Source: Ulota crispa (Eukaryota; Streptophyta; Bryopsida; Orthotrichales; Orthotrichaceae). Taken from it: DNA of 64,000 nucleotides. The position numbers and the translations under genes are program-made. The notes under the pieces are model-generated. The model saw nothing but the letters and a program-made list of their open reading frames with translations. It was not told where the DNA came from and made no database searches. Within the stretch, counting starts at the first letter, position 1; each line of letters begins with the position of its first letter. The stretch spans positions 6,450,501-6,514,500 of the forward strand of contig OY987246.1 of NCBI GenBank assembly GCA_963920765.1, read 5' to 3'. Positions 6,660 through 59,869 of this stretch are shown piece after piece.

Positions 6660-6945
6660 AGGTAGGATCACCCATAAGCGTTAGTGTCCCCATAACCGTC
6701 ACCTTTAGAATCTTGGAAAATTTGTAGAAATGAATAGATGTAATTACAAGGATGTAGAGCATGTGAACATGAAACCTTAGTGTTGGTTATGGGTGCAGTG
6801 GCAGTTTGCTCTTTAACCCTTAAACCTTAAGGAGGACGTTTTTTGTCCTCCAGCTCCAAAAAAAGATTATGTGCTACTAGAAAAAGCTGGTTTTCATTTG
6901 CTTCTTTTTCAGAAGTGATTGTAAACACCTGATCCATCATAGAAT

Positions 6946-6979
<34 letters not shown>

Positions 6980-7370
6980 CACTAGATGCACTCATATTTT
7001 TAGGTAACCCAAATTGTGAGAAGATTTAGAAACACAGTGTTAGGTTCCAAGATGCCCTTCTTGCAATTTTCATGAGGGCATCATGCACTGTTGACTATTG
7101 CAACTTCAAGAAACAATCTGATAGGATGGGCACTTGCTTCTATTGTAGAGATACAGTAAAGAGAACTGTAGCCGGGCTGGTCACAGTGACCAGCCCGGCG
7201 TTTAAGGGTTAAAAATTCACAACTTATTCTCACAGTATCCAAATAAGACATTCAAAAGCGCAAGCTTATTATTATTTTTGTTCTTGATAAGACCTTATAA
7301 TTTGCTAGCTGCTTATTAATAATCATCATGTTCAAAACCCTTAAACTGACGCTTATGGATGCTCCTACCT
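6660..7370. mobile_element. family C MITE, copy C1, interrupted
   Basis: Left end AGGTAGGATCACCCATAAGC, right end GCTTATGGATGCTCCTACCT, flanked by TA on both sides (6658-6659 and 7371-7372). The interior is the reverse complement of 26484-26716. The 711-bp length is explained by a TTAA-type element (6813-7212) inserted in its middle. Confidence 0.85.
6813..7212. mobile_element. TTAA element T1 (piggyBac-like), nested in C1
   Basis: TTAA on both sides. Left end CCCTTAAACCTTAAGGAGG, right end CCCGGCGTTTAAGGG, so the outer 9 bp (CCCTTAAAC) are perfect inverted repeats. Each end carries its own small hairpin: GGAGGAC/GTCCTCC on the left and GGGCTGGTC/GACCAGCCC on the right. A run of 29 A lies at about 6948-6976. 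The interior matches 59495-59869. No open reading frame of note. TTAA duplication plus CCC ends is the signature of the piggyBac superfamily. Confidence 0.8.
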
Positions 7371-8736
7371 TACCGCTTGACAAAACAAAAAAAACACTGG
7401 TTCTGAGCCAGTAAAGCTAATTATAAAAATCACGTTTGGAAAATGGGAATACTAATCCACATGTCCGAGAGATCTCAGATCACGTTGGTAACCACGTCAT
7501 CATATAAACATTAGCTGATTCCACGCGTATTTAGTCCTCCTTTCCCACCTGGAAACACCTCAAATACATTTCTTCGAATCTGTATGTGTGCTGGCAACCG
7601 TGTCCTGCTTCCAGCAAACAGTTGACTAAGGTAGAAGCAAGCACCTTATATGGACACTTTTTGTGAAATCAAATCAGGACGAAGGTGCACTGAGATTTTG
7701 AAATCAAATGTCAATTAGGAAATAGCACAAATGGGAAGAAAATTGTTCTCATATTTTTTGATATTTTATGAATAAAATATGAATTTTTGAAGACCAAGTC
7801 ATAGATACATCTAGTGTGGTCCCTAGACCCAAGGTAAATTGGTCATGAATCTTGGGAAAACAAACAAGGAGAAGATCAAATGAGTGAACATAAAAGTTTG
7901 AGAAGAAATCACTTTAATGCTTGAAAATGGTTGTCACAACTTGAATATAGAACAACACTTGTCACATTTAAGTGTAGCAAGGGTTTAATTTGCGTGCAAC
8001 TAGGTTTGCTTTGGGGGAATTCTAGGGGTCCNNNNNNNNNNNNNNNNNNNNNNNNNNNNNNNNNNNNNNNNNNNNNNNNNNNNNNNNNNNNNNNNNNNNN
8101 NNNNNNNNNNNNNNNNNNNNNNNNNNNNNNNNNNNNNNNNNNNNNNNNNNNNNNNNNNNNNNNNNNNNNNNNNNNNNNNNNNNNNNNNNNNNNNNNNNNN
8201 NNNNNNNNNNNNNNNNNNNNNNNNNNNNNNNACCAGCAGGGGCTGGTTCTTAGCATTGGAAACAACCAAACTTGCAACCCCTTGGAGAGCTCAAATTCTT
8301 CCTAATGAGGAAATAGGTCCAAAATTACCCACTAAGGTGATGAGTTTATACAAAGACCTGCCTAGGAATTTATTGTACTAAAAGGAACTAACCCCTTCAT
8401 TGCCCCTACCTGGATGAATGGCGTTGGAGGCTCAGTTTAGTGCTCATGAGATCATTCATGAACAATGGTCGGAAAACTCCGCTTTTCTACAAACTAGAGT
8501 AAAAGTAAGAATTTACTACCTATTTTGGCTTTGTTCAATTTTATCCTCATCCATAGTTGGAGACAAAAGTGAAGGTTTTTGAACCCGAACATAAATTCAA
8601 AGCTCCCAAATTCCCCAAATCCCTTCTTTATGTACACCCTAGGTGAAAAGCTCCATTTACTTTAACAAGGAAATAGTACATATCTGACTCTCTTTTATAG
8701 TTGTTTATTTTCACCCCATTTTTTCATGTAAGCTTA
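7371..8736. other. intergenic; contains 200-bp assembly gap
   Basis: No gene or delimited repeat is seen. Positions 8032-8231 are N. Open reading frames across the N run are meaningless because any content there is unknown. Confidence 0.7.
8032..8231. other. assembly gap (200 N)
   Basis: An exact run of 200 N. The round length suggests a placeholder, so the true distance is unknown. Confidence 0.99.
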
Positions 8737-9151
8737 GGGCATCCTCAATCCGGCTGGGCTAACGCACCCCTCCATTTGTACTGTAACAGTGAAGAACTGC
8801 AAACCTGTTTCAATGCATCTGGCAAGTGGCACGCAATTTTGGAGGGGACAGCAAAAACCTAGTCCATACCCATTACATTCAACATTCTTGGAGAGGCTTT
8901 CAAACTCATCTACATAATGCTGTAAGAGCAATGATGACTACTTTACAAGCCGAAATAGATTTGCAAGTTGGAAATAGAGATTGTGTTAGAAACATCTGAC
9001 AAAAGTCTGATAGAAACGATGTTTAGAGTCTCGCTACTTGTGTGCGCATTGGATCGGAGGAGCCAATATGCCGCCCGCTTTGGACAAGGCCACGCAATGA
9101 AGGTTGCTAATTGTTGTTAAGCGAGCCCAATGCCGGCTCTGGAGGATGCCC
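8737..9151. mobile_element. Tourist/Harbinger-like MITE
   Basis: Left end GGGCATCCTCAATCCGGC, right end GAGGATGCCC, with TTA on both sides (8734-8736 and 9152-9154). A 3-bp TTA duplication and GGGCATC-type termini fit the PIF/Harbinger (Tourist) group. The interior is GC-richer than its surroundings and non-coding. Length is 415 bp. Confidence 0.75.
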
Positions 9152-9282
9152 TTATAGAGAAATTTCAAATCAAAATTTGAATAAAAAATTTCCAAATTTG
9201 ACATGCAAGAGAATTGGGAAAGATGGAGTGGGACCTACGTTTACTCAAATAAACTATTTACCTCCGGATTGCTTTCAAGTTA

Positions 9283-9566
9283 AGGTAGTGTGCTCATACA
9301 ACGTTCATCTAAGGGCTGAAACTGAATTTTGGGGAGATGAAACTTTTTGAAATAATTTTTAGTAAATTTTCCTTGAAAGACAAGAGGAATTGGCATCTAT
9401 CCCAAGTGTTTTTATATTTTATGGAATTTTGTGGAATTAGCTATGAAATTTTGAAGTAGGAAGGTCATAGGTGCTCTAAAACTGCCCACCTCTCAAATAT
9501 TAGTCCCAAAAAGGGTGGGGGAGGTGAGCGAGATTAGAGCATGAACAAAATATGAGCAGACTACCT
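9283..9566. mobile_element. family B MITE, copy B3
   Basis: Left end AGGTAGTGTGCTCATAC, right end ATGAGCAGACTACCT, TA on both sides (9281-9282 and 9567-9568). The interior includes AAGGGCTGAAACTGAATTTT and CCTTGAAAGACAAGAGGAAT, shared with the copies at 10098 and 40489. Length is 284 bp. Confidence 0.8.
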
Positions 9567-9858
9567 TAGAGCGCTGCCAGTTTGACCTGCATGGCTGCAT
9601 ACCCCAAAAATACATTCAGTCCACAGTCCACAGTCCACCGTATCATCACGGTCCAGAATCACGCCAGTATATTCAAAATAACTACAGTAAATTAGGAGTT
9701 GAAAGGCTGACAGTCAAACTAAAATTTTATTATTGCCATAACTATCATTAAGTTAACTTAACCCTAAAACCAAAGTATCCAAAGTGTGCGATTGTGCATG
9801 AGTGCTCAATCAAACTTGGTGAACCCACGGGCACTCAACAAAATAGCTACACTAAATA

Positions 9859-10583
9859 AGGTAGAACCACCCATTCTCGATCATTTAAGCTCTTGTAAAA
9901 CAACACATTAGAGTAACAATGCAACACAAATTTTTTTGGTGGCCTCATACAAAATATTGAGACTCAAGTTTTTTCAAAAAATTTCACTCAAGACTAAATT
10001 ACATACAAATTTTGAAATGCATAAAGTGTTTGGAACCCATACACAATCACTAGACTCTCTTGATCCCAATCATAACCAAAACACTTCTTGCTCACTATGG
10101 TAGGAGGCTCATGAATGGACCATCTAAGGGCTGAAACTGAATTTTGGGGAGGTGAAACTTCTTGAACTATTTTTCAATAAATTTTCCTTGAAAGACAAGA
10201 AGAATTTACATCTAACCCAAGTTGTTTCATTTTTTTTGGAGCTTTGTGGAATTAGTTATAAATTTTTGAAGTAAAAAGGCCATAGGGATCTATAACGGTT
10301 CACCTTCTCAAATGTACACAGCTTGTACATTTTTGAAACCTATGAAAAACAACATGTACTTATGAGATACATTTGAGAAGGTGGACCGATTTTGAGCTTG
10401 AGCAGAATATGAGCCTCCTACCTTACTTCCTACTTTCTTTTGGCACACATGTCATGACCTTGTTCATCTTAATCTTGAAAAGGAAAAACATACGCATTCC
10501 AAGGCTTGGAAATAGGCATTAGAAACAGCACACCCTAGACTGGTTGGGTTTGGATCCCTAGTGGGGAATTGGTGGTTCTACCT
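9859..10583. mobile_element. family A MITE, copy A1, interrupted
   Basis: Left end AGGTAGAACCACCCATTCTC, right end GGTGGTTCTACCT, preceded by TA and followed by AA. The interior matches 54417-54847 and the reverse complement of 39945-40342. It is about 325 bp longer than those because a family B element sits at 10098-10423. Confidence 0.85.
10098..10423. mobile_element. family B MITE, copy B1, nested in A1
   Basis: Right end GAGCCTCCTACCT, left end TGGTAGGAGGCTCATGAATG. Comparison with the uninterrupted family A copies shows an empty site reading CTCACTACTTCC, so the insertion duplicated only TA. This is direct evidence for a 2-bp TA target-site duplication in this family. Confidence 0.88.
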
Positions 10584-12634
10584 AAGTGCATTTTGATTGC
10601 CCCACATTATTAATTTTTTGACATTTTACATTATGAAATTTCTTGCTGATACTATAATACTTTTTTGTCAATAATGACTTCATTATACAAGTTTTAACAA
10701 AAATATGGATTTGATAACAACAACAATGTTGCCATAAAAAAATTAGCATTGTTCAAGCCATAAATCATGTAAAATCCTAATATGCAAGGAATTGCATGCA
10801 TCTTCAAGTGACCAAATAATGAGGTATGATGTAACTTTTCATAATAAGACAACCTAATTGTTAAGGCAACCTAAATACACTATTTAGTATAGGAAGTATA
10901 TTTTTAAAATAGTCATTTTGAAGTGACCCTCAAGTCATCACTTCATATTTGTCCACTATTTCCTTTCACCTGCATTACATAAGTTATACCCATATTTATA
11001 TTAAATGAACTTGTATATTTGTTTGACAATCTAATCTTCAAAATTTCCTTTGTTCCTTTCAACTATGGGAGGATTTACAAGTAATTCCAGTTATTGGATT
11101 TTGCCGACTAACAATACTAACTTGCACAAATTTTAAAAATGGACAAATTAGCAAGGCACACTACTAAAATGATGTTGAATAATCTAGATTGATTTTGATA
11201 TATTATGAGCTTCATTATTATCACTATTTCAAATATTGTGACTCAAGTAACATAAATCTCAAAGAGATTTTGCTAGCATATATAGCTTAACTATAGAGTG
11301 AATAGGATGTTGCATTAGGTATAATTGTTGCTTGAAGGATGGTGGAAAGTCATGGCCAAAGTCCTACTTGGAGAATAAGGGCAAGTTGCATGCCATATTT
11401 TCATACTCATTAGGTGAAATTCACTCAAATTAATGTGAAGGAGTATTGTACTATTCATAATCTACCATTAATTAAAGTAACTTGTGTAATAATTTTGAGT
11501 GGAAAACCAATGAATCTAAGTAGTGCAATAATTCAAAAAAAATTGACACATACTTGTCCAAAAAACCCAAATCAATTATAAATGAGAAGATAAGGTTGAG
11601 TGTCCAAAAATCAATTATATATTAAGAGATGTTGAATCCTTTCTAACTATACTAAAATCACCATATATTGTGGGCAATAGCATTTTCCACAAGTTTAATT
11701 AGTTATTTTCATTTGCAATTTGATGTGGATTGTCCTTCTTCAAAATTAAAATGCTCTTCAGTGTTTCAAAAGCACATTCAAAGTTCTCAATGAAGCAAGT
11801 TTAGGGTTTGTGAACTTACTTGTCATAATGATTTGAAGCAATAGAAAAATTTATTGTAAACCACAATGAATATGAATTTAGGGTAATTATTCGCCACAAC
11901 ATATTTGGCAAACTTTTATTTTGTAATTTCAAAAATTGATTACGATTTATGGCTTCTCACTAGGTCCCAATCTCTGAATGAAGTGCCCTCGTGAAACCAC
12001 CTTGAAAATCTTGATGCCGACAAATTGAGTTTTTAAAATTTAAATTTTTTTTCAACACAGTTGACTAGTTTCCACAATCAAGCTACAACAAGAATAAATT
12101 GGACCAAGGCCAAGTGATTGAGCTTCAATTACTTGTAGGAACTGCAAATATTATAAAACCCCAAAGTTAGTTCAACAAAGCTCATTCAAGTCTAGCTATC
12201 ACATGAGGGTATTGAAGGACATTTTGATCCATGACAAATTGAGACTTTACCTACAGATTGGATGCACCAAATATGAAGGAATCTAACTTAAGGAAACAAA
12301 TGCTAACAACTTTTTTGAGGAAGAAAAGGTTTAAAACGGTTTTTATTGTTATTTCCTTTAGTCCTCTTAGCTCACCAAAATTGGATATTTGGCATTCAAC
12401 CGGAACGTGCTGAACTGGGACGTAGGGCACGTTATGAACATTCAAAATCCCAACACCAGTGGTTCCAAACGTGGTTTTTCAAAAATAGCTCCTGGTGCCT
12501 AAAACTGTGCCAAACACTAGCAAACGTGCTCAAATCTCAAATTTAACAGATGCCGTAACCTTTGCACCAGTATTCTAGCTACAGTCAATGGTGGCAGTGT
12601 TTCACAATTGTCACTAAAACTTTGAAGAACTTGA
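10584..12634. other. intergenic, mostly decayed repeats
   Basis: No gene seen. The part at 11220-11515 matches dispersed repeat G. The rest is AT-rich with no delimited element. Confidence 0.55.
11220..11515 (+). repeat. dispersed repeat G copy
   Basis: Shares ordered blocks with 27955-28250 in the same orientation (for example GTGACTCAA, CCTACTTGGA, TGCCATATTTTCAT and TAACTTGTGTA/TAACTTGTATA) and with 4530-4880 in reverse. Class is not recognised. Confidence 0.5.
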
Positions 12635-13072: not shown

Positions 13073-14365
13073 TAATGAATATAGTCACGTCAGCAGACAA
13101 GATAGTGAAGTTTTGGGGCTTGCTATGAGGGTGCGTGGCTCCAAACTTGTCCCATAGAAGCACACTCTTGCTTTGTAGCAACTTTCTTCTCCAATACTCT
13201 TGGTTGACATGAAAGTGCTATGGAGAATGAAATATTGGAGGGGGTACCACTTCTTGTGTTTTTATCCGATAACTAGTCTAAATTGGGCCTTATACTAAGG
13301 GGTTGTTCACACTATGTCCCACATCATGTCTATGTAAGTCCCTCCTCAATGTCAGATTGCAACTTCATTAATTTATTAAAGGTAAAAGGAGTACTAAAAA
13401 AATCATGAATTATGTAAAAATATTGGTGGGACTTGGGTTGAAAGTTGGTTTAACCAAATGATCAACCCAAACCTTCTATGAAGGCCCACCTTCTTTACTA
13501 CCAAAAATTCCAAAAAATACTTCCATGTAAGCAACCAAGGCATGAGACTTGAAACGTATTGTGAAGTGCCAAATCCCAACTTTTGGTGTTGCATTAATAA
13601 GATTCCAAATTTAATGGGTTGTGGTATTTGGGGATATTGTGTCGACCGCCCCTAAATCTTAGTCATGGTTAAAATTTCTTTTTGGGAATTTTGCATTGGG
13701 TTAATTATGAAAACCACATTAGGGGTCATAAGTAAACTCTTGGAGTGGAAGCGTTTGTTAAGTGGATAATAATTGTTTTCAAACGTTTATTGTAGGAGCT
13801 ATATGAAATGGATGAACTTCATCCAATTATGTTTAGAAAGTAACTTTGCTTATTTTACAACCATGTGACAAATTTAATGCTTCATGAATGCCAATTTAGA
13901 ATCAATTCGTGTAGAGATGGAAAGAAATCTCGCAGAAACAAAGATATTTTGTATGGAAGTTTTTAATCCCTCATCGCCCATGGTATTTTTGAGTATCTCA
14001 GAATTTGCTGGAAAGTGAACAAAATGCCGGTATTTTGATCAATCTTATCAATTTTCTCTAAAGTCCAACCGTATAAATTCAAAGCAGACATGTTATAGAT
14101 CACATAGGAAAAGAAATCACAACAATATCATTTATGGATTGAAAGATTATAATGTTTGATCCTGAGGGTGTTAAAACTGCAAAAGTGATTTGAACTCTTT
14201 CAGTATTATTTTTGCATCTCAAACCTAAAATTGAGGGTACCAAAAAAACATGAGCATGTAAAGTATAACATGCGTAACCCCAATCAATTTGCAGCTTCTC
14301 AAAATCTATTCTACAATTTTTAAAATTGAATTTTGAATGTGATTTTTTCTCCAAGTTCTAGTGTA
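13073..14365. other. intergenic, no gene seen
   Basis: AT-rich sequence with only short anonymous open reading frames, and no terminal repeats found. Confidence 0.55.
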
Positions 14366-14738
14366 AGGTAGCCGCACCCATGGGCGTGACGTCCCCATGG
14401 GCGTCACTGACAAAGTTAGGGTAGTTATGGGTATTGAAGTGATAGATATGAGTGACAAAGTGATGGTTGTGGGTGACTCCATGACAGTTTTGAGTACCCA
14501 TCTCACTATTTAAGAACCAACAAGCCTTGTTTTTAGCATCTCTTACACATTGTTCCTACAATTTTAGTGATTTTGGACTTTGAAAAATCTTTGTGAACAA
14601 ATGCTTACAAATGGAACCTTGAAATTGATGCCAATATTTTTGGTTTCCATTTCCTAGCTTACAGTATTTTTTCAAAGTTAGTCAATTGTTTTACCTACTC
14701 CAAAACCCTTATTTCCACGCTTATGGGTGCGCCTACCT
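14366..14738. mobile_element. family C MITE, copy C4
   Basis: Left end AGGTAGCCGCACCCATGGGC, right end CTTATGGGTGCGCCTACCT, TA on both sides (14364-14365 and 14739-14740). The interior is the reverse complement of the copy at 1880-2262 (TCACTATTTAAGAACCAA; AGTCAATTGTTTTACC). Length is 373 bp. Confidence 0.88.
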
Positions 14739-15042
14739 TACTTGAGGCTCATTTCCAAGAGCCTTCAACACTAGAAAGTGAAGATTTACAATGGATACCC
14801 TTGCATAAAATCTTGAATAGACAAATCATGTTAATTCATTTTCAAAATCAGACTCTTGATGCTGAAACTAGACTTCAATAAGAATTTAAATAAAATAATA
14901 ACCAATAAAAAAATCTTGAAAAAAGGTTGCACATTTCTAAGTAAAATTTAGAGAGGCCCAATTTGGGCCCCTTGGGCGGTGAGGGGTTAAGGCCCAAAAG
15001 TTCCAGATCTACATGCTTCAAGCCCTCAACCCATATGCACTA

Positions 15043-15981
15043 TTAACCCCTAAAGGACCATTGTCCCTTTGGGAGACAGCTTGGACTTTGAACATGTACC
15101 CATGGCTAAACTAATTAGTGTAATTTTTTGAAACTTTTATTGAAGGTGGGGCAGTCAAAGATTTATGTGGGCATCTAATTTTTTCTTCATTGTCACATTT
15201 GATGAAGAAGTTATGCAAGAGTTATGAAAATTTGGAGAAGACTGCATGTCCGGGCAGCCCAAAAACTTCTTTAAATTTTATTATTATTTTAAATAAAAAG
15301 TTGAAATTGGTTCTTAAGATTTTTTTTATTTATGAGAAGCTTTGAATCATTCAATTTCAATCAATGACATAAAAGTTATGAGGAGTTTTTGTTTGCGGGC
15401 GGTTATGGAATCTCTACCCTAAAATAAACTTTGAAGTCCTTTATTTCACTCAATTTTCAATATTTTGGAAAAAAAATTAAACTAAAGGAAGTGGATTGTT
15501 TATCACAACATTATTGCTGTCAGGATTAGCCTTTTTCATTTCAATAGTTAAATTCTTAGCAATTTAGTGTTTTGACTCATTCTCTACTTCTTTTTACTTA
15601 CTATATGTTCCCATGTCTTGTAAAGCTCCAATTGATTTGAAAATTCTCCCACACATTCCTAACTTGATCTCTTACATGGAAAAAATAAAGCGCAACTTTG
15701 GGTAGAGCAATTTATTTGTTATAAGAGTGGTCAAAGGCTTCTGAAAATTTTGGGCAACACGAAAAAAAACTTTCTCTTTTCACTTTAGATGTAAACATCT
15801 CACTCCTCTCCATTTGGAATGAGCTGATTTTTCCCCACAAGTATCTCTTCTAGTTTAGGGCAAAATCCTACGATTGAATTCTCCAAAAACAACACATAAA
15901 ATCCCTTTTTACTAAACCTCCTAGAAGTGACCGTTTTTAGTAATTTTGGTAGGAAAATGGGCTTGGTCCTTTAGGGGTTAA
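15043..15981. mobile_element. TTAA element T2 (piggyBac-like)
   Basis: TTAA on both sides. Left end CCCCTAAAGGACCATTGTCC, right end GGCTTGGTCCTTTAGGGG, so the outer 12-13 bp are inverted repeats. The left end folds on itself (AAGGACcattGTCCCTT). Length is 939 bp with no coding capacity. The interior matches 16563-17492 closely in the same orientation (for example CAATCAATGA, CCTTTAGG). Confidence 0.85.
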
Positions 15982-16288: not shown

Positions 16289-16560
16289 TCTCCTTGTTAC
16301 TTAACCTTTATACATCCCATGGGAATAGTAGATACATTTCCTCATAATTGGCATTTGTTACCAACAAGAAGTTTTAATTTGGGATTTCATAAAGCTCACT
16401 AAAATTGCATTGATTTATATTTCAACTTCTTTCATTGTTGATCTCAAATCACTACAAGGGGACAATGTCAATTTGGACATTTTAAGTCAATTTAGACATG
16501 TCGATGTAGACACTTTTTTTTTTTTTTGTCAATTTGGCCATTTATCTATCAATTTGGACA
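16289..16560 (+). repeat. dispersed repeat R, copy 1
   Basis: Blocks such as AGTAGATAC, ATAATTGGCATTT, TTCAACTTCTTT and TTGTTGATCTCAAAT recur at 57473-57690. The last part recurs directly downstream of element T3 (17487-17750). It also contains a low-complexity series of CAATTTGGACA-like units. Class unknown. Confidence 0.65.
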
Positions 16561-16562
16561 AG

Positions 16563-17492
16563 TCAACCCCTAAAGGACCATTGTCCCTTAGGGGGACAAT
16601 TGGAATTTTGGGTATGTACCTATGGCTAACCTACTTTGTGTAATTTTTTGAAACTTTTATGGAAGATAGGAAATTCAAAAGTCTATGTGGGCATCTAATT
16701 TTTTCCCCATTTTCACATTTGACGAAGAAGTTATGCAAGAATTTTAGCAACCTAGGGGAGGGAGGGCAATCCAGGCAGCCCAAAAACTTCTTTAAAAATT
16801 CATTCAAAAAAAATAAAAATATGAAATTGGTCCTTTAGATTTTTTTATATGTGTGCAACTTTGAATCATTCCATTTCAATCAATGAGATGAAAGTTATGA
16901 GATATATTAGTTTGTGGGCAGTTACGGATCCTCTGCTCTAAAATAAACTTTGAAGTCCTTCATTTTCCACAAATTTCAATATTTTGGAAAAAAAACCAAA
17001 CCTAAGGAAGTCAATTGTTTATTACAACAATATAGCTTTTGAGATTTTCATTTTTCATTTCAATAATTAAATTTGTAACAATTTAGTGAAACTCATTATA
17101 CTTTTTTTTACTTACTATTTTTTCTTGTGTGTTTTACAGTTCCAATTGATTTGGAAATTCTCTCACACATGCCTAACTTGACCTTCTACATGGAAAAAAT
17201 AAACCTCAACTTTGTGTAGAGCAATTTTTTTCATGTAAGAGTGGTCAAAGGCTTTTGAATTTTTTGGACAGCACGGAAGAAAAACCTTTTTTTTTCACTT
17301 CAAATGTAAATATCTCCCTCCTCTCCATCTAGAATGACCTGATTTTTTTCCCACAAGTACCTCTTCTAGTCTAAAGCAAGATCCTACGGTTAGTTTTCCC
17401 AAAAAAAAAAACTACCTTCTTTCTCATCCCTTAGAAGTGGCAGTTTTTGGTGATTTTGACAGATAAAAAGGGCTTGGTCCTTTAGGGGATTG
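16563..17492. mobile_element. TTAA element T3 (piggyBac-like), decayed ends
   Basis: Left end CCCCTAAAGGACCATTGTCC preceded by TCAA, right end GGCTTGGTCCTTTAGGGG followed by ATTG. Both TTAA sites appear mutated. The interior is a sister copy of T2. Length is about 930 bp. It lies between two direct copies of part of repeat R. Confidence 0.8.
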
Positions 17493-17760
17493 TTGATCTC
17501 AAATCACTACAAGGGGACAATGTCAATGTGGACATTTTAAGTCAATTTAGACATGTTGATGTAGACACTTTTTTTTGGGGGTCAATTTGGACATTTATCT
17601 ATCAATTTGGACATTTATTTATCAATTTGGACACATTTAGTCAATTCAAACTTGTCAATTTGGATAGTTTCTCTTATAGTGAATGTATTAAAAGTGTGAA
17701 TCCATCCCATGTACAAGAAAAGTACTTTTTATTGTATTGAATGTAAAGGGTCTTTCAAAT
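17487..17760 (+). repeat. dispersed repeat R, copy 2
   Basis: Begins TTGTTGATCTCAAATCACTA exactly at the right edge of T3, duplicating 16434-16560. It carries the CAATTTGGACA-like short repeats and continues into a block shared with 57590-57660 (GGATCCATTCC-like, TACAAGAAA, GTACTTT). Confidence 0.65.
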
Positions 17761-18618: not shown

Positions 18619-19499
18619 TTAATCCCTAAAGCCCTAGGGCCAATTATTTGGTCAAAAGACACTCAAAACTGCCATTCCTATTGCAAAGAGTAAAAAAGTT
18701 TGAAAATTGATCATTTTCATATCTAGCCATAGGATCTTGCACTAAATTAGTACAATAATGTGGGAAAAAAATTCCAAAACTTTGACCATCCAAATTGCAA
18801 GATATTTGCATTTAAAGTGTAAAAATCAAACATTTTTGCACCTTACATGATTAGATTATTTGACTTTGTACTTTCTTTAATTTAAGATTTTTGCACCACA
18901 TATTTTTGAGGTTTATTTCCTTATGGTGGAAAATTGAGTTGTGAATCCTTGGAAAAAAACCTAAGCAAAATATAATTATTTTTCATTCTTAAAAACAACA
19001 TTAAGTGGAAGAAGGTATGAGATTGAACAAAAACTTAAATTGGTAATAACCTTGCAATGGAATTGAAACGCAATAATCTCAATGGTGAGATTCTTCTAGA
19101 AAGCAAATTTCACCCTCTCCAACAATGTTTTTGGAAAAAATGTTAAACTTGCATTCAAAAATGAAGTTTATAAGTTATTTTTTCAAAAAGATGCTTGAAT
19201 TGCCCAAAAAGCATGATTGTCCATAACTTTCTCGTAATTAGTTCCAATGGAATGAATCAAAGCTTCAGATGTAGACAAAACTATAGCCTATGAGAAGAAA
19301 AAAAAAAACTTTAAAAAAAATCAAGTTTTTGTAAATTGTTTTTTGCTATCCAATCTCCATATTTTTTTGCTTATCTGGACACTTTTGCTCTTGGGCATAG
19401 ATTGGAATAAAAATCATATTCCCCAAAAATTAATGTGTTATTCTATCTTCAAAAAAGTTTCAAAAAATCAAGACTAACATTGAGGTTGTACGTACTTGC
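18619..19499 (-). mobile_element. TTAA element T4, inverted partner of T5
   Basis: Begins TTAATCCCTAAAGCCCTAGG, the decayed right end of a T-type element in reverse orientation. The interior is the reverse complement of 19545-20429 over almost its full length. The expected outer end next to 19500 (about 45 bp, including CCCCTAAAGG and TTAA) is absent, so the copy abuts T5 directly. Confidence 0.82.
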
Positions 19500-20429
19500 T
19501 TAACCCCTAAAGGACCATTGTCCCTTCAAGGGACAAATGGGATTTTGGGCAGGTACCTACGGCCTCAATTTTTGTCTTAATTTTTTGAAACTTTTTTTGA
19601 AGATAGAAAACACATTAGCTTTTGGGGAATCTAATTTTTATTCCAATTGATGCCAGATAGCAAAAGTTATGCCCAAATAAGCACAAATTTGGGGACTAGG
19701 GGCAGCAAAAAAAATTCTTATAAAAACTTGAAAAAAAAAATTAATATTTTTTTCTTATAGATTATATCTTTTTGTATGCCTGAAGCTTTGAATCATTCCA
19801 TTTGGACTAGTTATGAGAAAGTTATGGACAATCTTGCTTTTCAGGCAACTTAAGCATCTTCTTGAAAAAATAACTTATAAACTTCATTTTTGAATGCAAG
19901 TTTAACATTTTTTCAAAAAAATCTATTGGAGAGGGTGAAGTTTGCTTTCTAGAACAATCTCACCATTGGGATTATTGTGTTTCAATTCCATTGCAGGGTT
20001 ATTAGCAATTTAAGTTTTTGTTCAATCTCATACCTTCTTCTACCTAATGTTTTTTTTAAAGAATGAAAGTTAAGTGTTCTTTTTTTAAATTTTTTCCCAA
20101 GATTCCCAACTCAACTTCCCACCATGCAAAAATAGAATTCCAAACTCTATAGTGCAAAAATTTTAAGTTAAAAATGTTCAAAGTTAAAAAATCTCGTCAA
20201 GCAAGGTGCAAAATAAGTTGTTTTTTACTTTTTAAATGCAAATATCTTCCAATCTATGCAGTCAAAGTTCTTGAGTTTTGTACGACACATTCTTGTAGTA
20301 GTCTAGCACAAGATCCTACAGTCAAATATGCAAAATGCCTGATTTTCAAACTTTTTTACTCTTTGCCATAGAGGTGGCAATTTTGAGTGTCTTTTGACAA
20401 GAAAAAGGCCATTGTCCTTTAGGGGTTAA
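19500..20429 (+). mobile_element. TTAA element T5 (piggyBac-like)
   Basis: TTAA on both sides. Left end CCCCTAAAGGACCATTGTCC, right end GGCCATTGTCCTTTAGGGG, so the terminal inverted repeat is about 20 bp with few mismatches. Length is 930 bp. The small open reading frame at 20174 is not recognisable. With T4 it forms a 1.8-kb head-to-head inverted repeat. Confidence 0.9.
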
Positions 20430-21900
20430 GATCTTATTTGTCCCGTGAGGGGATACTTAGGGATTTAGGGGTTAACCTTGCAAGGAATAGATGTATGTGA
20501 AATACACTGTGAATTGACCATCTGCTGGTTGCGTGGTCATCAAAGTGTTAATACAACATGAATTTATCCATTGCCATCTGCTTTTCTATTTTGCTATAAT
20601 GTCATTTAAAACATATGACATTAATAATTGTTTTAGTTTTTTACATTTTGTGCTTAAGGTTAGTATATTCACTTTTAGGTATTATATGTTTACACTCATT
20701 ATATTAGCGCTTACATGGTTTGGCAAAAGAAATATCTTTGGAGGTGTTTATATGGTCATACAAATGTGTTTACGATTTCAGTTTATTTCCTAGAGCAAAA
20801 CCTTCTATTTCCCAAGTCATTGACTCAAGTAAGCTACTTGAGAGCAACCACCCATTAAACTTCTCTACCAAGAGAATTGCCACTTTGTAGTCAATCACAT
20901 GGAACTTGTGCCTCATGAATTCTAAAAGCTATTTGAAACTCTAAATATATGAGAGATGCCATTACCAAAGAAACTAGTTGCAATTTTCAAGAAAAAAATT
21001 GGGCACTTGCCCTTGAAGTGCATATAATTGCTTGTCAAAAATGATTACAACACATGAACTCAACTTTGAACAATCATAGATGCTTCAATTGACCAAATGC
21101 CATATATTCAAAAAATTGAAACCATATAAGTGACTTTAGAAGTTTGATATGTCAAATTTTGAAACCCCTAAGCAATGTTTGGAGAGACTTTTGAGCTTCA
21201 ATTAAGAGTTTTTCATTTCCAATACACTAAATAATGCATTTAGTTTGCTTTTTTTTGAAAATTTACCTCATGACTCATTACTTGGACACTTGGAGGTACA
21301 TACAACACTCTACATACTAGAATTGCACATGATCTACACATAAACAAATGTTAATTTGTTTTTCCGCAACATCAATTTTGTTGCCAAGTCCTTATTGTTG
21401 TTGAACTATGTTTATTGCAGTAATTATTAATGAAAATTACTTTAGTATCAGGATAGTATCAGGATAGTATCAGGATAGTATCAGGAAGTATTCATATAGT
21501 ACCAAAAGTCAAAAAATTAGTGTGGGGAGGCCTAAACGCAATAATCAATGTAGAAACTACCTTCATTTATGCTATTAATTTTTTTGGTTAGAAATGTAGC
21601 CTTTTCTTAACCCGTAGTTTCCAATAATTAATTTTCCATTTCAACCGACTGACTCTACAGTGATAATCACTTTTTCCCCAATTATTACCCTTAACACAAA
21701 AGGATAAAGTGGAATATTGAGTGGCAAATGGATATGTTCACCCTAGACTCCTAAACTTTACCTCTAAAACAGGATAACATTTGCTAATTACGTGCCTGAA
21801 GCATTTTCGTAGAACCGCCCAACCAAGACACTTCGAGTTCCAAACAATATAATACTGGTTTTCCGGGGGTTGGAGTTATCTTTGATAGGTGAGGTGGACA
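20430..21900. other. intergenic, no gene seen
   Basis: AT-rich until about 21.8 kb, where base composition shifts to the GC-richer F-box gene region. The only structured feature is the 11-bp repeat at 21444-21487. Confidence 0.6.
21444..21487 (+). repeat. 11-bp tandem repeat, four copies
   Basis: AGTATCAGGAT is repeated four times without a mismatch except the last base. Confidence 0.95.
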
Positions 21901-39354: not shown

Positions 39355-39768
39355 TCAACCCCTAAAGGCCCGTTGGCCCTTTTTGGGGACAAATCGGATT
39401 TTGGGCATTGCTAAATTACTTTGTGTGATTTTCTGAGATTTTTATGGATGATGAGGAATTCAAAGATTTAGGTGGGCATTTAAAATTTTCTTCATTTTTC
39501 TTCATTTTGACATTTATTGAAGAAGTTAAAAATGAATTTTATGGAAAACATGCAAGATTAGGCAGCCTAAAAATTTCTTCAAAAATTACATTTTTTAGAA
39601 ATAAAAATATGAAATAGGTTCTTTAGAGTTATATAGGTGGAAGCTTTGAATCATTCAACTTAGATTGATAAGATGAAAATTATGAGAAGTTTTTGTTTAG
39701 GGGTAGTTCTAGTTTTGAGCCAAAACCCCCTTTGTCCCCCATAGGGACAATGGTCCTTTAGGGGTTAA
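39355..39768. mobile_element. TTAA element T6 (piggyBac-like), long terminal repeats
   Basis: Left end CCCCTAAAGGCCCGTTGGCC after TCAA, right end GGGACAATGGTCCTTTAGGG followed by GTTAA. The inverted repeats extend about 35 bp (left …GGGGACAAAT, right in reverse …GGGGGACAAAG). At 414 bp it is much shorter than T2, T3 and T5, to which its ends and some interior text (GGGCATTTAAAATTT; GAAGCTTTGAATCATTC) belong. Confidence 0.88.
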
Positions 39769-41366: not shown

Positions 41367-41368
41367 TA

Positions 41369-47868: not shown

Positions 47869-48783
47869 TTAACCCTTTAGAGACCACTGAACCATATTTT
47901 GGTTCAGGAGAGTAGTTTTTGGCCTATACAGTAAAATCACTCAACAATTTGGAAAATGATTTTGAAGAACACTTGTGATCACAAGAATTTTGCATACAAC
48001 CCAAAAAACAACAATAGAATTGGATATGGGAGTTGATAAATAAAAGTGTTTATACATCATGGCCTCAAAATACGTATCCATATTTGGTCAAAAATGGATC
48101 AAAGTAACAACACAATACATCAAACATCCAAGAAGAATGCCACATTTCAATTGTGCAATCTTAAAAAACTTCAAATTACTCAAGAAATATGCTTGTATTG
48201 TTTCTCTATACGGTAGTAGTACAATTGTACTATTTGAGAATCCATTGAAATGATGCTATCGATTTATTTAAAAAAAAGTTCATCCTACATTTAAGGCCAA
48301 TTCTTGATTGCTTTCACCAGTTGGATTTTCAATTAAAAAATTCAAATTTCTTGTAGAACTGTTTTAGGGTAGCAAAGAAAATGGGATTTTTGACCCTTTT
48401 TGTCCACTTAGCTACACCTTGTGATTGCTATTTTTGTTTATTTTGAGTGAAACTAGTCTTGTTGGAAAGGTGGGAAACCCTACTTTCTAGAAATGTAAGA
48501 CTCTTCTCAATCAAAGCTTGCATGAAGCGCTACCATTCCAAACCACACAAGCATGAAAAACTAGAGATTTCCCATATATGGCTCACTCAATCATTATAAT
48601 ATTTCACCTCCAACGGTAGATCTAGCTGAAATTTTGATGCATTGCAGCAAACAAGGTGTCCTTCACATTTGTATGGTTGGATTATTCAAATTGGGTCCAT
48701 ATTTGTTTCAAATGCACATCTAATCTTACTACCCTGGTTTCTAGTGGATTTTGGGAAAATGTGTGTGGTCTTTAAAGGGTTAA
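47869..48783. mobile_element. TTAA element T7 (piggyBac-like), distinct family
   Basis: TTAA on both sides. The ends TTAACCCTTTAGAGACCAC and, in reverse, TTAACCCTTTAAAGACCAC match at 18 of 19 positions. A perfect hairpin GAACCA-TATT-TGGTTC lies just inside the left end. Length is 915 bp. Its interior is unrelated to T1 or T2. The 64-residue frame at 48059 is anonymous. Confidence 0.9.
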
Positions 48784-50200: not shown

Positions 50201-51242
50201 TTAACCCTTGCGTGTCCCAAAAATAGTATACTATCTCTAGGGATTAGAAAACAGGGTCCTTGGACCTGCTAGTACAATTGTATTGGAACTATAGTAGGGT
50301 GGTTCGAGGGTGATAAAGAGTGGAGTACCAGGGTACGTAGTGTGGCTGATTGGTCTCACATGAGGTATCTATTATTTGCATAAACCACATGCTTGTAAGT
50401 GCAAGGAGATTTGCCTAAACCAGATTTTGAGCTTGGCTCTTAGGGGTTGACCTCTAACTGCCCTTAGTGAAATCGGAAAAATGAGGCCAAGAGGGACCAT
50501 GCTCAAAAATATTGTACGCTCAAAGTTGGGAACTTTGATTGAGGAGGATTCATTGCTGAAATAGCAAAAAGGGTGCTTGATGCACCCAATCAGAAATTTG
50601 CAGAACTTTTGACCGCATCATTTTGTAGATTATAATAAAAGTACAATTGACTATGTGGCAACTGGCCAATTTTGGGGGGGTTTGTGGCTGTGGATGCAAA
50701 AATTCATGCCTTAGAGGAGGCTCCTTTTGATGAAATCTAGGCAAGAGGTGCGGTTTACAATTATCTCACTTGCTGCCAAATTTGGTGATGTTTTGACATT
50801 TGCTAGGTTCTTTTTTAAAGGCCCAAAGTTGCAAGACTCACATGGCATGGTGGACAATAGATAGGGGACGCGTACAGCTTTGACCTTCACAAGGGCTAGG
50901 TCTTGGTGGTACAGCTGCAAAACCCTTCACTGGTCTGAGGCATGCGTACCAAAACACATCTAACGGTATGAAATTGATCATAATTGGTGATCTCTATCCT
51001 TGCACCTAAACCCTAAACCACATAAAATACAATTCTAGCGTACTATTGCCATACTTGACTTGCACAATTTATGCTTATACAAGTGGTGAAACCCCCATCA
51101 CCCATTATGTAGCATGCGAGTAGTACTGTACCTTTGGCAAAGTGCAATTTTCTGGATAGTACAGTTCTGATATGGACCTGATTTTAAGGAAAGTATAATT
51201 TCGAGGGGCGATATTATCGCCCCTGGGGCGCTCAGGGGTGAG
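50201..51242. mobile_element. probable TTAA element T8 (piggyBac-like), decayed
   Basis: Left end TTAACCCTTGCGTGTCCC, followed by a palindromic ATAGTATACTAT. Right end has the perfect hairpin GGGGCGATATTATCGCCCC, then GGGGCGCTCAGGGG and TGAG where TTAA is expected. The right end matches that of T9. The pairing of these two ends as one 1.04-kb element is inferred. A CTTAGGGGTTGA at 50441 is an alternative right end. Confidence 0.5.
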
Positions 51243-54416: not shown

Positions 54417-54847
54417 AGGTAGAATCACCCATTCCCGATCATTTAAGCTCTTGTAGGACAGCACATTAGACTTAGAGCAACAATGTGGGGCAGCACATTA
54501 GAGCAACAATATGGCACAAAATTTTCTTTAGTGGCTTCATACAAAACATTGTGACACAAATTTTTTCAGAATTTTTCACACAAAATTGAGTTATATATAA
54601 ATTTTGAAGTGAATAAAGTGTTCAAAACCCATACCCAATCAATAGACTCTCTTGATCCCGATCATAACCAAAACACTTCTCACTCACTACTTCCTTTTTT
54701 TATTTGGGACACATGTCATGACCTCATTCATCTTAATCTTGAAAAGGGAAAAAATACGCATTCCAAGGCTTGAAAATGCGCATTAGAAATAGCACACCCT
54801 AGACCGGTTGGATTTGGATCCCTGGTTGGGAATGGGTGGTTCTACCT
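54417..54847. mobile_element. family A MITE, copy A3 (intact)
   Basis: Left end AGGTAGAATCACCCATTCCC, right end GGGTGGTTCTACCT, TA on both sides (54415-54416 and 54848-54849). Length is 431 bp. An internal direct duplication of GCACATTAGA…GCAACAAT accounts for the extra length over A2. Confidence 0.92.
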
Positions 54848-54849
54848 TA

Positions 54850-55666: not shown

Positions 55667-55931
55667 GTTTAGGGTTTAGGGTTAAGCTAACGAGTTACTT
55701 CGACGTGCCGAAGGTGTCTATGGTGGTCTCTCTTCGCTCAATGCTGTCTGTTTCACAGGGAGCTTCTCTCATACTTTCTCGCAGTGTTATCTGCGTCCGC
55801 AACATTGCTCAGTCATTTGAGTCGGGGTTTAGGGTACAGCGAAGCAGAGGTTTCGGTTTAGGGGAAGCAAAGCAGAGGTTTAGGGTTTAGGGGAAAGCAA
55901 AGTAGAGGATTAGGGTTTAGGGCAGAGAGGG
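55667..55931 (+). promoter_or_regulatory. telobox-rich leader of the EVE gene with 29-bp tandem repeat
   Basis: AGTTTAGGGTTTAGGGTTAA at 55667-55686. Then 55826-55931 holds about 3.5 units of 29-30 bp, each GGTTTAGGGG followed by AAGCAAAGCAGAG and GTTTAG. The array ends 11 bp before the start codon. The TTTAGGG motif is the plant telomere unit. Confidence 0.85.
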
Positions 55932-55942
55932 GAAGGGCAAGC

Positions 55943-56692
55943 ATGGGATACTGGCTCATGAAGACGGAGCCGGGGGAGTGGGGATGGGAGCACCAGAGCC
56001 AAAACAACGGGGTTTCGCAATGGGATGGAGTACGGAACGCGCTGGCGCAGATGCATCTCCGGAGCATGCGGGAAGGGGATCACGCCTTCTTCTACCACTC
56101 CGGCAAGGGCCCCGCGGTGGTTGGAGTGGTGGAGATCGTCAAAGCGGCGTACCCGGACGTCAGCGACGACACAGGGAAGAGCTCCATGGTGGACGTGCGC
56201 GCGCTCGCGGCGTTTCCTCAGCCTGTGCCGTTATCCGTCATCAAGAGTGACGACGCCATGCGTGACTGGATTCTGTTGCGCCAGTCTCGCCTCTCCGTTA
56301 TGCCTGTGTCGCCCGATGTGTGGCGCCGTGTGTGCGCTTTGGGAGAGCTTTCGCCTCCTCTCTGTCGAACCACCGACGACGAGGACGAGGACGCCATGGC
56401 TGAGGTTAAGCCTGAGAGAAAGACGCGACCTAATAAAAGAGGTAAAGCGGATGCTGGTGCGGAAAAGCAAAACGCAAAGCAGAGGAGAAGTGTGAATGCT
56501 GCGACTGAAATTGTGAAGCTCGAGGAGCAATCCACCGAGACGGAATTTGCCGCTGCTGCAGAATTGAAAACCTATCAGCGATCCACTCGAAAGAGGAGTG
56601 CCTCCATTGAACTCTCGGTGGTGAAAACTTACAAGTCCAGACGTGTTAAAAAACTTCCTGAGGACGACACCACGCCAAACCCTAAACCCTAA
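55943..56692 (+). CDS. EVE-domain protein (THYN1-like), intronless
   Basis: 249 residues. Residues 1 to about 135 form an EVE domain: GYWLMKTEPGEWGWE, SQWDGVRNALAQMHLRSM, REGDHAFFYHSGKGPAVVGV, VDVRALAAFPQPVPLSVIKS, WILLRQSRLSVMPVSPDVW. EVE is a PUA-fold relative of YTH domains and is thought to bind modified bases in DNA or RNA. The eukaryotic relative is thymocyte nuclear protein 1. The C-terminal 110 residues are charged and low-complexity (DDEDEDAM, KPERKTRPNKRGKAD, STRKRSAS), consistent with nuclear localisation. The last four residues (NPKP) and the stop codon are encoded by a CCCTAAA telomere-like run. The start is the first ATG after the repeat array and directly precedes the domain. 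The absence of introns may indicate a retrocopy, but no poly-A tail was seen. Confidence 0.9.
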   Translation: MGYWLMKTEPGEWGWEHQSQNNGVSQWDGVRNALAQMHLRSMREGDHAFFYHSGKGPAVVGVVEIVKAAYPDVSDDTGKSSMVDVRALAAFPQPVPLSVIKSDDAMRDWILLRQSRLSVMPVSPDVWRRVCALGELSPPLCRTTDDEDEDAMAEVKPERKTRPNKRGKADAGAEKQNAKQRRSVNAATEIVKLEEQSTETEFAAAAELKTYQRSTRKRSASIELSVVKTYKSRRVKKLPEDDTTPNPKP

Positions 56693-56699
56693 ACCCTAA
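56677..56699 (-). repeat. telomere-like CCCTAAA run covering the EVE stop codon
   Basis: Three CCCTAAA units in the orientation opposite to the upstream TTTAGGG motifs. The stop TAA is 56690-56692. Confidence 0.95.
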
Positions 56700-56961
56700 T
56701 TCTGAACCCCGTCTCTCTCTCTTCTTCCTCTTCTCTTTGTAGCACTCTCATTAGTCTGGCAAGACCCTTCAATGAAATATCTTCAACTTTTTGGGCATCT
56801 TGTTATAATTTGTGTATGCACATTGTGGTACATTTGTAAGCATTGTACAGTTCTTTTACAGCAACTATATACTTGTGCTATCCTTCTCAACATTGGCTAC
56901 CAAGAATTGTTCAAAGATGTTGCTGGATACGCTATTTTTTTCATTGTATTCATTGTAATCT
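56700..56961. other. EVE 3' region, no gene seen
   Basis: A CT-rich stretch (56708-56740) and AT-rich DNA. The 66-residue frame at 56772 is anonymous. Confidence 0.45.
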
Positions 56962-57199
56962 TTAACCCCTGAGCGCCCACAGTTGTTTTAGGATTTAGGA
57001 GACAATGGGGGTTTAATGGTCACCAGAGCTTGGAAATCACATCTAGAAAAAGTGACCATAGGATTTGAAAAAGGATTACCTTCTCTGCTTATGGGGATTA
57101 GTCACGATTGTTTTCATTGTACAAATCAAGAGAAAAAGGTGAGATCTAAGTTGTGATCCCCAACGACATGATCTTGTCGCTGGGGCGCTCATGGATTAA
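56962..57199. mobile_element. TTAA element T9 (piggyBac-like)
   Basis: TTAA on both sides. Left end CCCCTGAGCGCCC, right end GGGGCGCTCATGGA, with a CGAC/GTCG hairpin just inside the right end. The right end shares GGGGCGCTCA with T8. Length is 238 bp. Confidence 0.88.
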
Positions 57200-57225
57200 C
57201 CTTTGAACATCGTAGTAGATACACT

Positions 57226-57472
57226 TTAACCCCTAAATGATGCTGCTGTTTTGTATACGGACTCCCAAGTTTTATACGGATGGGGTATTTGGATAGCACA
57301 TGAACCCCATTGGAGTTGTAAGTTTCAAGCCAAGTCATAGACATACCACTTGTCAACTAGGATTTTTTGGGGAATTTTTAACATCTGTCATATAGTCATT
57401 TCTTTAAGTACTAAATGGTTCTTGTACAAATACAAACAACACTTTTGGTAGGCAACATCCTTTAGGGGTTAA
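57226..57472. mobile_element. TTAA element T10 (piggyBac-like)
   Basis: TTAA on both sides. Left end CCCCTAAATGATGCTGCTG, right end GTAGGCAACATCCTTTAGGGG. CCCCTAAA/TTTAGGGG is perfect and the next bases are partly matched. Length is 247 bp. Confidence 0.85.
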
Positions 57473-57690
57473 TCCTTGAACGTCATAGTAGATACGTTGC
57501 TGTATAATTGGCATTTACTATCATCAATTTTTTTAAATTTGGGATCTCAAATAGGTCCCTAAGATTGTGTTGATGTATATTCCAACTTCTTTGTTGATCT
57601 CAAATGTAGTAAAGATGTGGATCCATTCCAAATACAAGAAACGTACCTTGTATTTTATTGTTCATAGCGGCACGGTTAGACATTTGTGCA
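57473..57690 (+). repeat. dispersed repeat R, copy 3
   Basis: Corresponds to 16301-16450 and 17487-17740 (CATAGTAGATAC, TATAATTGGCATTTACTA, TTTGTTGATCTCAAATG). It begins directly at the TTAA of T10. Confidence 0.65.
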
Positions 57691-57695
57691 GCTCA

Positions 57696-58068
57696 GAGCA
57701 TCTCCTACAGCACGTCAAAACAACCCCGCTCTCCCTAGCCGTAACGGCTTTTGCATTTCAAGTCCCCAACAGCACTCAATGCGTCCCTGTGCAGGTCACG
57801 GGGCTTTCAGATTGAGCCTCGTTCTTGTCAAATTCTAGCTTTCTCTAGGCCCCCTTCACGGTCCCTCCCAAGCACTGTTCACGCAATGTTCAAGCATGAC
57901 TCCACTCCATAGCTAGGTGTACCCGTGCAATTCATTATAACGCAAGTGCAAGTCCGGAAGGGTCCAGGGTTGCAGGAGAACTTCAAGCCACGCCCTGAAG
58001 GTTTGTGTCATTCTCCCCGTGAAACCTCATTTTTCTAGGACTTGGAAAGCATGTTGCAAGAGATGCTC
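57696..58068. mobile_element. Tourist-like MITE, GAGCATCTCC end, copy 1
   Basis: Left end GAGCATCTCCTACAGCACG, right end CATGTTGCAAGAGATGCTC. Flanks are TCA and TTA, a possibly mutated 3-bp duplication. The interior is GC-richer than its surroundings. Length is 373 bp. Confidence 0.7.
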
Positions 58069-58755
58069 TTAGACATTTAAAGGTTAACCTTGTCGGGCTC
58101 ATTGAGTGAAAGCCTAAGTAGGCATGCAGGGATCATGTCCTTTGGACCCACCATTGGTGGTTTAGTAGCAAAAGTTCAAATGATGCATTTTTAGTACATT
58201 GATATCTTCTGTGGATCTTGTGCTAAGTGAACAACATTTGAAGAGTTTAGATCCTCAAAAGTACCCTCTACATATGTTTCATGAATTGAAAACCGAAAGT
58301 GTGTTATGTTCAAAAGAATGACAATTGCCTTTCAAAAACAATCTCAAACAAATGTGTGTTTCAAAAGAGTTGTTCAATAACATTTTAGGGTATCACAATT
58401 TCAAATCCATTTCAATTCATTACATTCTAAAATGATTTATAAAGTGAATAACTTGAAATGGAATTTTACATTTTAAGCTTTAAGTCTCATTTGTTACTAT
58501 TGGTGATAGTAGTAGTGAATATATTTTTTGTAGACGTAATTCAAAAACCCCAAACTTTTGTTCAAAAACCAATACCAGATTATTTCTCTAAGTTTCTCAT
58601 AATGCATCTTTGTAGAAAAATCAAGATGGCAAATTGAAGCATTTCAAGATTAAGTCTTCGAACTATGCATGCATGATCCAAAGTATCAACATTTAGGAAA
58701 TCATACCTAATTGCTTGGAAGCTCAAGTGCTAAAAATTGCATATTACATCACTAA
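58069..58755. other. intergenic, no gene seen
   Basis: AT-rich, nothing delimited. Confidence 0.5.
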
Positions 58756-59130
58756 GACCATCTCCACCACGCCCGCCCGGCTTTGCAACTTTGGCCAGGC
58801 AAGGTGCCGGAATTTGCCCTCTCCTGTTTGGGCCCCTTCAACGCCAACCCAAGGGGGCGGGTGGGTTGGTGGCCAAGGGCGAGCAACCCGGCATTTCCCT
58901 TCCTTTTGACAAGCAAGGAGGGGAAGTGCTGAGCAAAAATTCAATAAAAAGTGACACATGTCAGTAGGTGGTGAGCTCCAAGGACAATAGTCTAGTGATT
59001 GAGTAGGACAACAGCTCAAGGTTCTAGTTGGGGTGGGCGGCGCAAGCCACCTTGCTGCCCCGCTATGCCTCCCTACCTGGCTACCTATCGGGTTGCATAC
59101 CTGGCTTGGGCGGTTGGAGTGGAGATGCTC
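58756..59130. mobile_element. Tourist-like MITE, GAGCATCTCC end, copy 2
   Basis: Left end GACCATCTCCACCACGCC, right end CGGTTGGAGTGGAGATGCTC, TAA on both sides (58753-58755 and 59131-59133). Length is 375 bp. GC-rich. The reading frames across it on both strands are artefacts of its composition. Confidence 0.82.
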
Positions 59131-59228
59131 TAAATGTCCAAAAACCACATGCTAGATTTTTTTGGAGCCAACATGATTTGGTACAAAAGTGATTGAGCTT
59201 TGAGAATATAGGCTTTGAGAGTTTAATA

Positions 59229-59461
59229 CAATAGAACTCTAAACTAATATGGTTGGGACTCCAAGAATTAGATTAGTTTTAAATAAGTTATTAGTTAATT
59301 TTGTGGAAGTGTAAATGAAGTAACCTTGAAGTTAGTGCCAGGATAGCATTATAGGTAGCTTGGTTTATTTATATTATGACCCTGACATTGAAATTTGTGT
59401 TATACATTAGTTTATAGAGCATATTAGTTTAGAGAGGTATTAGTTTAGGGAGGTTCTACTG
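59229..59461. mobile_element. Emigrant/pogo-like MITE, copy 2
   Basis: Left end CAATAGAACTCTAAACTAAT, right end TTAGGGAGGTTCTACTG, TA on both sides (59227-59228 and 59462-59463). Same family as 30382-30621. Length is 233 bp. Confidence 0.85.
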
Positions 59462-59494
59462 TAGTAGGACCCATGGATCTTCAAATCTAAGAAC

Positions 59495-59869
59495 TTAACC
59501 CTTAAACGCCTAAGAGGATGCTTTTTATCCCATTGATAACAAAAAAATCCTCTATAGGGCTAAAAATAACTATTTTTGATTTGATTTTTTTTAAATGAAC
59601 ATAAACACATGGTCCATCACTTAAGGCAAAAAGCAACCTCACTAAATGCACTCATAACTTTAGGTAACTCAAATTTTGAGGGGATTCACAAACACAATGT
59701 TAGGTCCTATGCTATGCTACCTTTCTTGCAATTTTCATGAGGGCAACATGCACTATTGCCTTTTGCAATTTCTGAAAACAATATTATAATGGGTGGGCAC
59801 TTGCCACGCCACTATAGAGCCACTATAGGAGGATAGTCACAATGACTAGCCGGGCATTCAAGGATTGAA
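59495..59869. mobile_element. TTAA element T11 (piggyBac-like), sister of T1
   Basis: Left end TTAACCCTTAAACGCC, with an AGAGGAT…ATCCC near-hairpin. Right end AGTCacaatGACTAGCC, GGGCATTCAAGGATTGAA, where TTAA has decayed to TTGA. The interior matches T1 (TGCACTCATA, AACACAATGTTAGGT, TTGCAATTTTCATGAGGGCA). Confidence 0.8.

Follow-up and report, generated by a model that had tools for sequence, protein, structure and literature searches.

PiggyBac transposons, widely used for footprint-free gene delivery, have been described mostly from animals. In the moth Trichoplusia ni, piggyBac (IFP2) targets TTAA and, as described in PMC7351741, carries a palindromic internal repeat at bp 17–33; for the human MER75, MER85, and Looper elements, a preprint (PMC12324416) likewise describes TTAA flanks and inner palindromic repeats close to the termini. 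Plants are already in print as hosts: they are named as such in a paper citing the 2017 survey by Bouallegue (PMC8086355), PiggyBac figures as one of seven superfamilies of angiosperm miniature inverted-repeat transposable elements (MITEs; PMC10004981), and a repeat table for Ceratopteris counts 1230 PiggyBac copies (PMC6890710). Here, we describe TTAA-flanked elements with CCC ends in a 64-kb stretch of plant DNA (contig OY987246.1, C5 in our analysis, positions 6450501–6514500; this whole stretch is called the window below) and follow them through a 274.8-Mb assembly of 157 contigs. An earlier reading of the same stretch from its letters alone (the sequence-only reading) was aware of no well-established land-plant piggyBac families; this is corrected by these three papers, whose plant listings, as given there, describe neither ends nor empty sites nor elements that carry a transposase. 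Among the literature matches listed, none followed a plant piggyBac from its ends through empty sites to its enzyme, which is no proof of absence; a match on Niphotrichum was a false lead, containing the word 'piggybacking'.

We consider it very probable that the elements of the window are non-autonomous (MITE-type) piggyBac transposons. They and their larger relatives combine a TTAA target, short inverted ends starting CCC or CCY, a DDE_Tnp_1_7 domain within elements ending in this way, the DDD residues, a C-terminal cysteine cluster (by pattern), and, at some of the ends, a subterminal palindrome, the last being described for some members of the superfamily. Like the moth element, they use TTAA, and the plant reading frames match the moth transposase; unlike it, they have ends that differ in sequence in the comparisons made, reside in a plant, and include transposase-bearing forms of 5.0–7.5 kb whose enzymes are only distantly alike. 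The likeness to the human MER75, MER85, and Looper is one of described features.

In the window, we recovered ten TTAA/CCC elements of 238–1028 bp and one inverted partial copy (Table 1), which sum to ~7.3 kb by simple addition with nested DNA counted; seven of the ten elements are bounded by exact TTAA at left and right. The sequence-only reading had counted eleven elements of 0.24–1.04 kb; its observation was confirmed, and the paired ends are enriched. When TTAA-CCC/GGG-TTAA pairs (one base off allowed) were scored for inverted ends, 9 of 99 close pairs (150–2500 bp) reached a score of at least 8, vs 21 of 2178 distant pairs (>5 kb). Six of these nine close pairs are elements and three are other pairings: a second partner for the left end of T4 (20475), a pair internal to the T4 hairpin (19109), and a short match, 3247–4627, which was not called an element. 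Two ends that start TCC rather than CCC, the left one of T10 and the right one of T8, were located by inverted repeat alone, with TTAA not required, and TTAA flanks both. When inverted repeats bounded by equal flanks of 2–10 bp were surveyed without regard to TTAA, AT was found 48 times and TA 41 times among 2-bp flanks, and AATT 13 times and TTAA six times, besides others, among 4-bp flanks; a few long hairpins, read in shifted registers, account for many of these rows. Of the six TTAA rows, four start CCC and two lie inside long hairpins; among the other 3–10 bp rows listed, a CCC start was absent. Self-comparison of the window (≥60 bp, E 1e-8) bore out the proposed kinship of T2, T3, T4, and T5 (family A) and of T1 with T11. 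It found no similarity between T8 and T9, which had been grouped together; these two therefore look like separate families. The window elements are non-coding, and no transposase remnant was matched in the window by tblastn.

Genome-wide searches with T7, T2, T1, and T8, in each of which the best 40 candidates were scored, returned at least 41, 42, 47, and 40 matches, respectively. Exact termini occur 1104 times for family A and 983 times for the T7 type (either end), and reversed-pattern controls gave 0. We cut out the 30 best-scoring copies of T7 and of T2, dropping two T2 loci (L050 and L051) as duplicates of L049, which left 28. Both ends carry exact TTAA in 25/30 T7 copies and 24/28 T2 copies (49/58 in total). 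Per base, the information content is 1.4–2.0 bits across TTAA and the first element bases and falls to 0.02–0.44 bits outside, and the outer T and A of the target are about as constant as its inner bases in copies of both families. The duplicates just mentioned (L049–L051; contig C9, ~9.40–9.45 Mb) are 3.9-kb stretches identical three times over, flanks included, either a segmental or an assembly duplication.

Duplication of TTAA had been proposed as a test at empty sites. We joined element flanks around one TTAA, compared the product with the 72 loci cut from the assembly and with the window, and kept junction-spanning rows at E 1e-20 or better. Of the 32 rows obtained, which are not independent (L049–L051 are one stretch, and L021/L055 occur both ways), 15 have exact TTAA, 10 are one substitution off, and 7 differ otherwise. 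The best case is the site of T1, with 11 insert-free rows, nine of them distinct when L049–L051 are counted once, at 82–87% identity over 284–327 columns: six of the nine carry exact TTAA and three are one base off (TTGA, TTCA, and TT-A). These empty sites lie in further copies of the repeat holding the insertion and are hence paralogous, not orthologous alleles; on such sites, the expected single TTAA was borne out.

A search of the same genome for DDE_Tnp_1_7 (PF13843), also proposed earlier, gave at least 120 matches when 116 out of the 528 candidates were scored (lowest E 1.3e-73), compared with 0 in 14 control genomes. Pfam assigned all three frames submitted to it, which came from two loci, to PF13843, and two frames matched transposases of solved structure, moth piggyBac (6x67; L072 frame, 4e-20) and piggyBat (9c0f; L004 frame, 1.7e-16). 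The transposase stretches of ten loci are ~28–68% identical to one another; therefore, several transposase lineages coexist. The first two catalytic aspartates were aligned to the solved piggyBac and piggyBat structures; all three DDD motifs were found by pattern in L003, L004, and L071, and another six of the ten loci miss at least one by the same pattern. A CxxC...CxxC cluster follows the catalytic domain, again by pattern only, in seven of L001–L008 (not L003), and in neither L071 nor L072. No end pairs were found within the 4-kb loci L001–L008, which for L001, L005, and L006 is explained by the greater length of the elements. Five loci (L001, L005, L006, L071, and L072) were extended outward, the other five being scanned within 1.5 kb, and four of the five extended loci proved to have TTAA-CCC ends on both sides, 5.0–7.5 kb apart; in L006 and L071, the left end was placed solely from its inverted-repeat match and proved to adjoin TTAA. 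The ends of T10 resemble those of L001 (30 bp, 86.7%, E 1e-4) and L006 (22 bp, 90.9%, E 0.006), and those of T7 resemble the ends of L005 (94% identity over 18 and 17 bp; E 0.02 and 0.07). L072 has one end like those of L005 and T7 (E 0.05), and the transposases of L072 and L005 share 67.5% identity. The pairing of transposases with non-coding families suggested by this terminal similarity is thus a plausible one for T10 and a tentative one for T7.

Several of the ends have a further feature in common, a palindrome a short way inside the element. The strongest palindrome is centred 24–25 bp from the TTAA border in T1 (left and right), T4, T7, T8 (right), and T10 (right), and its sequence differs between families and even between the two ends of T1. 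At a threshold of 0.75, the palindrome is present at this position in 10 of the 19 ends in the window, counting related copies, and in 4 of the 696 other sites next to TTAA; site 50201, among these four, is possibly an element end too. Likewise, the best centre falls at bp 24–25 in 9 of 20 ends vs 59 of 711 TTAA-adjacent sites (binomial 1.3e-5), where the 20 ends include transposase-bearing ones and are not independent and element ends were not removed from the 711 sites. Averaged over 30 copies each, the left-end peak lies at bp 25.0 in T7 and 24.0 in T2, and in L005—outside both end counts—palindrome arms are seen by eye at bp 17–21 and 29–33. A palindrome near bp 54 of the opposite end was weak (T7 0.46, T2 0.51) and is not claimed; when the T7 palindrome was inspected by eye for compensatory change (30 copies), the differences were mostly CG to CA/TG and so were not counted as covariation. 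In moth piggyBac, a dimer of the C-terminal domain binds bp 17–33 of one left end, where the minor groove is narrowed at about bp 25, as reported in PMC7351741. By their position, the plant palindromes may be the corresponding binding site of a transposase dimer.

From these observations, a cut-and-paste route can be proposed by analogy with the known enzymes. A DDD transposase of the DDE_Tnp_1_7 family, supplied by larger relatives elsewhere in the genome, would bind the CCC ends, its C-terminal cysteine-rich domain would contact the palindrome ~25 bp inside one end, and the enzyme would then excise the element and reinsert it at TTAA, duplicating the four bases. That a plant piggyBac transposase mobilised the elements, as the sequence-only reading had supposed, finds support in the DDE_Tnp_1_7 matches, the transposase loci with TTAA-CCC ends, and the single-TTAA empty sites.

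Several observations weigh against this assignment or against parts of it. Seven of the 32 empty-site rows are more than one substitution from TTAA, six of them in alignments of 71–79% identity. Eleven of the 20 ends, which are not independent, do not have their best palindrome at bp 24–25, and a best centre there also occurs at 2 of the 13 ends taken from other repeat families, at low scores (0.57 and 0.62). Extension of L072 gave no convincing pair of ends, and its stop-free match has N at the expected third catalytic D. In-frame stops, counted within the match, are present in 110 of the 120 matches (10 are without; the eight best carry 1–6 each), and no intact transposase gene is shown. The E-values of the T7–L005 end match are weak, and the ends of T1, T2, T8, and T9 have no relative among the transposase-bearing elements, to which they are tied by architecture only. 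Kolobok and Sola3 also insert at TTAA, and with terminal similarity limited to T10 and, weakly, T7, the ends could stem from such a superfamily and the piggyBac genes of the genome be unrelated to them. We regard this as very unlikely: TTAA and CCC (or TCC) ends are common to the window families and the DDE_Tnp_1_7-bearing elements, and several families have the palindrome at bp 24–25 in common with the latter. Less probable still in our estimate is the case of Tc1/mariner-like MITEs with ACCC ends that duplicate TA and inserted at the TA within TTAA, although the window holds other MITE families that look TA-flanked and a 2-bp TA duplication within a strict TTAA target would leave an identical empty site. 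Tc1/mariner MITEs are recognized by a duplication of TA only, with variable neighbours; in T7 and T2 copies the outer T and A are conserved, and where elements with such ends encode a transposase, it is of the piggyBac type. This reading, which the palindromic nature of TTAA invites, was rejected on those two grounds.

A different question is whether these piggyBac MITEs are old, dead relics that have not moved for a long time. Mean pairwise distances of 6.9% (T7) and 10.9% (T2) and the stops in the transposase matches speak for it, and we think it unlikely, if clearly less so than the two preceding alternatives, in view of copies ~99.6–99.7% alike that lie 46 kb (T7) and 7.6 kb (T2) apart in unrelated adjoining flanks. 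The three closest T7 pairs (p-distance 0.003, 0.012, and 0.022) are the only three of 435 pairs less than 60 kb apart, and in each of them (L010/L011, L028/L030, and L025/L027) similarity spans from TTAA to TTAA. No similarity was found outside these borders in L028/L030 and L025/L027; L010/L011 has none in the adjoining flanks, and a 265-bp piece ~1.1 kb out (77%, matching orientation; taken as a dispersed repeat) and two shorter pieces also match. In the T2 family, L065 and L067 are 99.6% alike, bringing the range for near-identical neighbours to 7.6–46 kb. Such twins with unrelated adjoining flanks suggest recent movement, for which local hopping would be the best explanation, and local gene conversion may also be behind them. 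The T7 copy of the window, which had been thought possibly recent, differs by 4% from the nearest of the scored copies and by 2.5% from the majority of its family and, hence, is not very recent itself.

PiggyBac transposons of this kind are already known, plants being listed as hosts, and the present genome is unusually rich in them for a plant. We tentatively propose—at somewhat less than even confidence—a diverse, recently mobile plant piggyBac system of at least 120 transposase matches and more than 1000 non-coding passengers, the ends of which keep the spacing of the moth zinc-finger site (palindrome 24–25 bp in) while their sequence varies by family; the system would be the first in a plant to be traced from its ends through to its enzyme. 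Being rich in non-autonomous copies and having transposase-bearing relatives, the genome is a source of ends and transposases adapted to plants, and a natural setting in which to test how an enzyme and its palindromic binding site evolve jointly. Moth-derived piggyBac tools, already in use in rice (PMC5505980), could meet native relatives in some plants.

Table 1 Features of the window, and transposase-bearing elements elsewhere in the assembly
Feature	Position or length	Strand	Remarks
T1, 400-bp non-coding element	6813..7212	+	TTAA on both flanks; sits in a MITE with GGTAGG-type ends
T1 left palindrome	6831..6851	+	bp 15–35, centre 25
T10, 1028-bp element	13963..14990	.	TTAA on both flanks; ends like L001 and L006; nested MITE with GGTAGG-type ends
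T2, 939-bp element, family A	15043..15981	+	TTAA on both flanks
T3, family A copy	16563..17488	+	left TCAA; right TTAA lost beside 127-bp flanking direct repeat
Inverted partial family A copy	18619..19499	-	head-to-head with T4
T4, family A copy	19500..20429	+	TTAA on both flanks; stray TTAA-CCCC end at 20475
T4 left palindrome	19518..19536	+	bp 15–33, centre 24
T5, 414-bp family A copy	39355..39768	.	left TCAA, right TTAA
T7, 915-bp element	47869..48783	+	TTAA on both flanks; terminal 17–18 bp like L005
T7 left palindrome	47887..47907	+	bp 15–35, centre 25
T8, 238-bp element	56962..57199	.	TTAA on both flanks
T9, 247-bp element	57226..57472	.	TTAA on both flanks
T11, 375-bp T1 relative	59495..59869	+	right end decayed
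Dicer-like 1 coding stretch, RNase III domains	62526..63512	-	two RNase III matches
Transposase-bearing element L001	5027 bp		TTAA-CCC ends on both sides
Transposase-bearing element L006	5102 bp		TTAA-CCC ends on both sides
Transposase-bearing element L071	7495 bp		TTAA-CCC ends on both sides
Transposase-bearing element L005	5586 bp		TTAA-CCC ends on both sides

The pairing of these T numbers with those of the sequence-only reading, which gave no coordinates, is an assumption, above all for T6. At 62526–63512, the top match in the Protein Data Bank is plant Dicer homolog 1 (E 1.8e-143), with Dicer-like 3 as runner-up (E 1.7e-66); DCL1 being the best by far, we take the host to be a land plant and the window to be nuclear DNA.

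Some rearrangements accompany the elements. The direct repeat that brackets T3 (16434–16560 and 17489–17613, 93%), where the right TTAA is missing, points to a rearrangement at the element end, and the two family A copies at 18619–20475 form a long hairpin with long inverted arms. The short flank beside T8 (57200–57225) reappears to the right of T9 (past 57472), as if element and flank had been duplicated. At 50201 lies a lone TTAA-CCC end whose palindrome has its centre at bp 24.5 and for which no TTAA-bordered right partner was found. Outside the window, the transposase-like frame of L072 (L072:2228–3658) is uninterrupted over 476 amino acids, and its N in place of the third catalytic D may reflect decay or domestication. 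Finally, several-copy MITE families with GGTAGG-type ends, apparently flanked by TA, occupy 10096–10424, 14366–14750, and 6641–7390.

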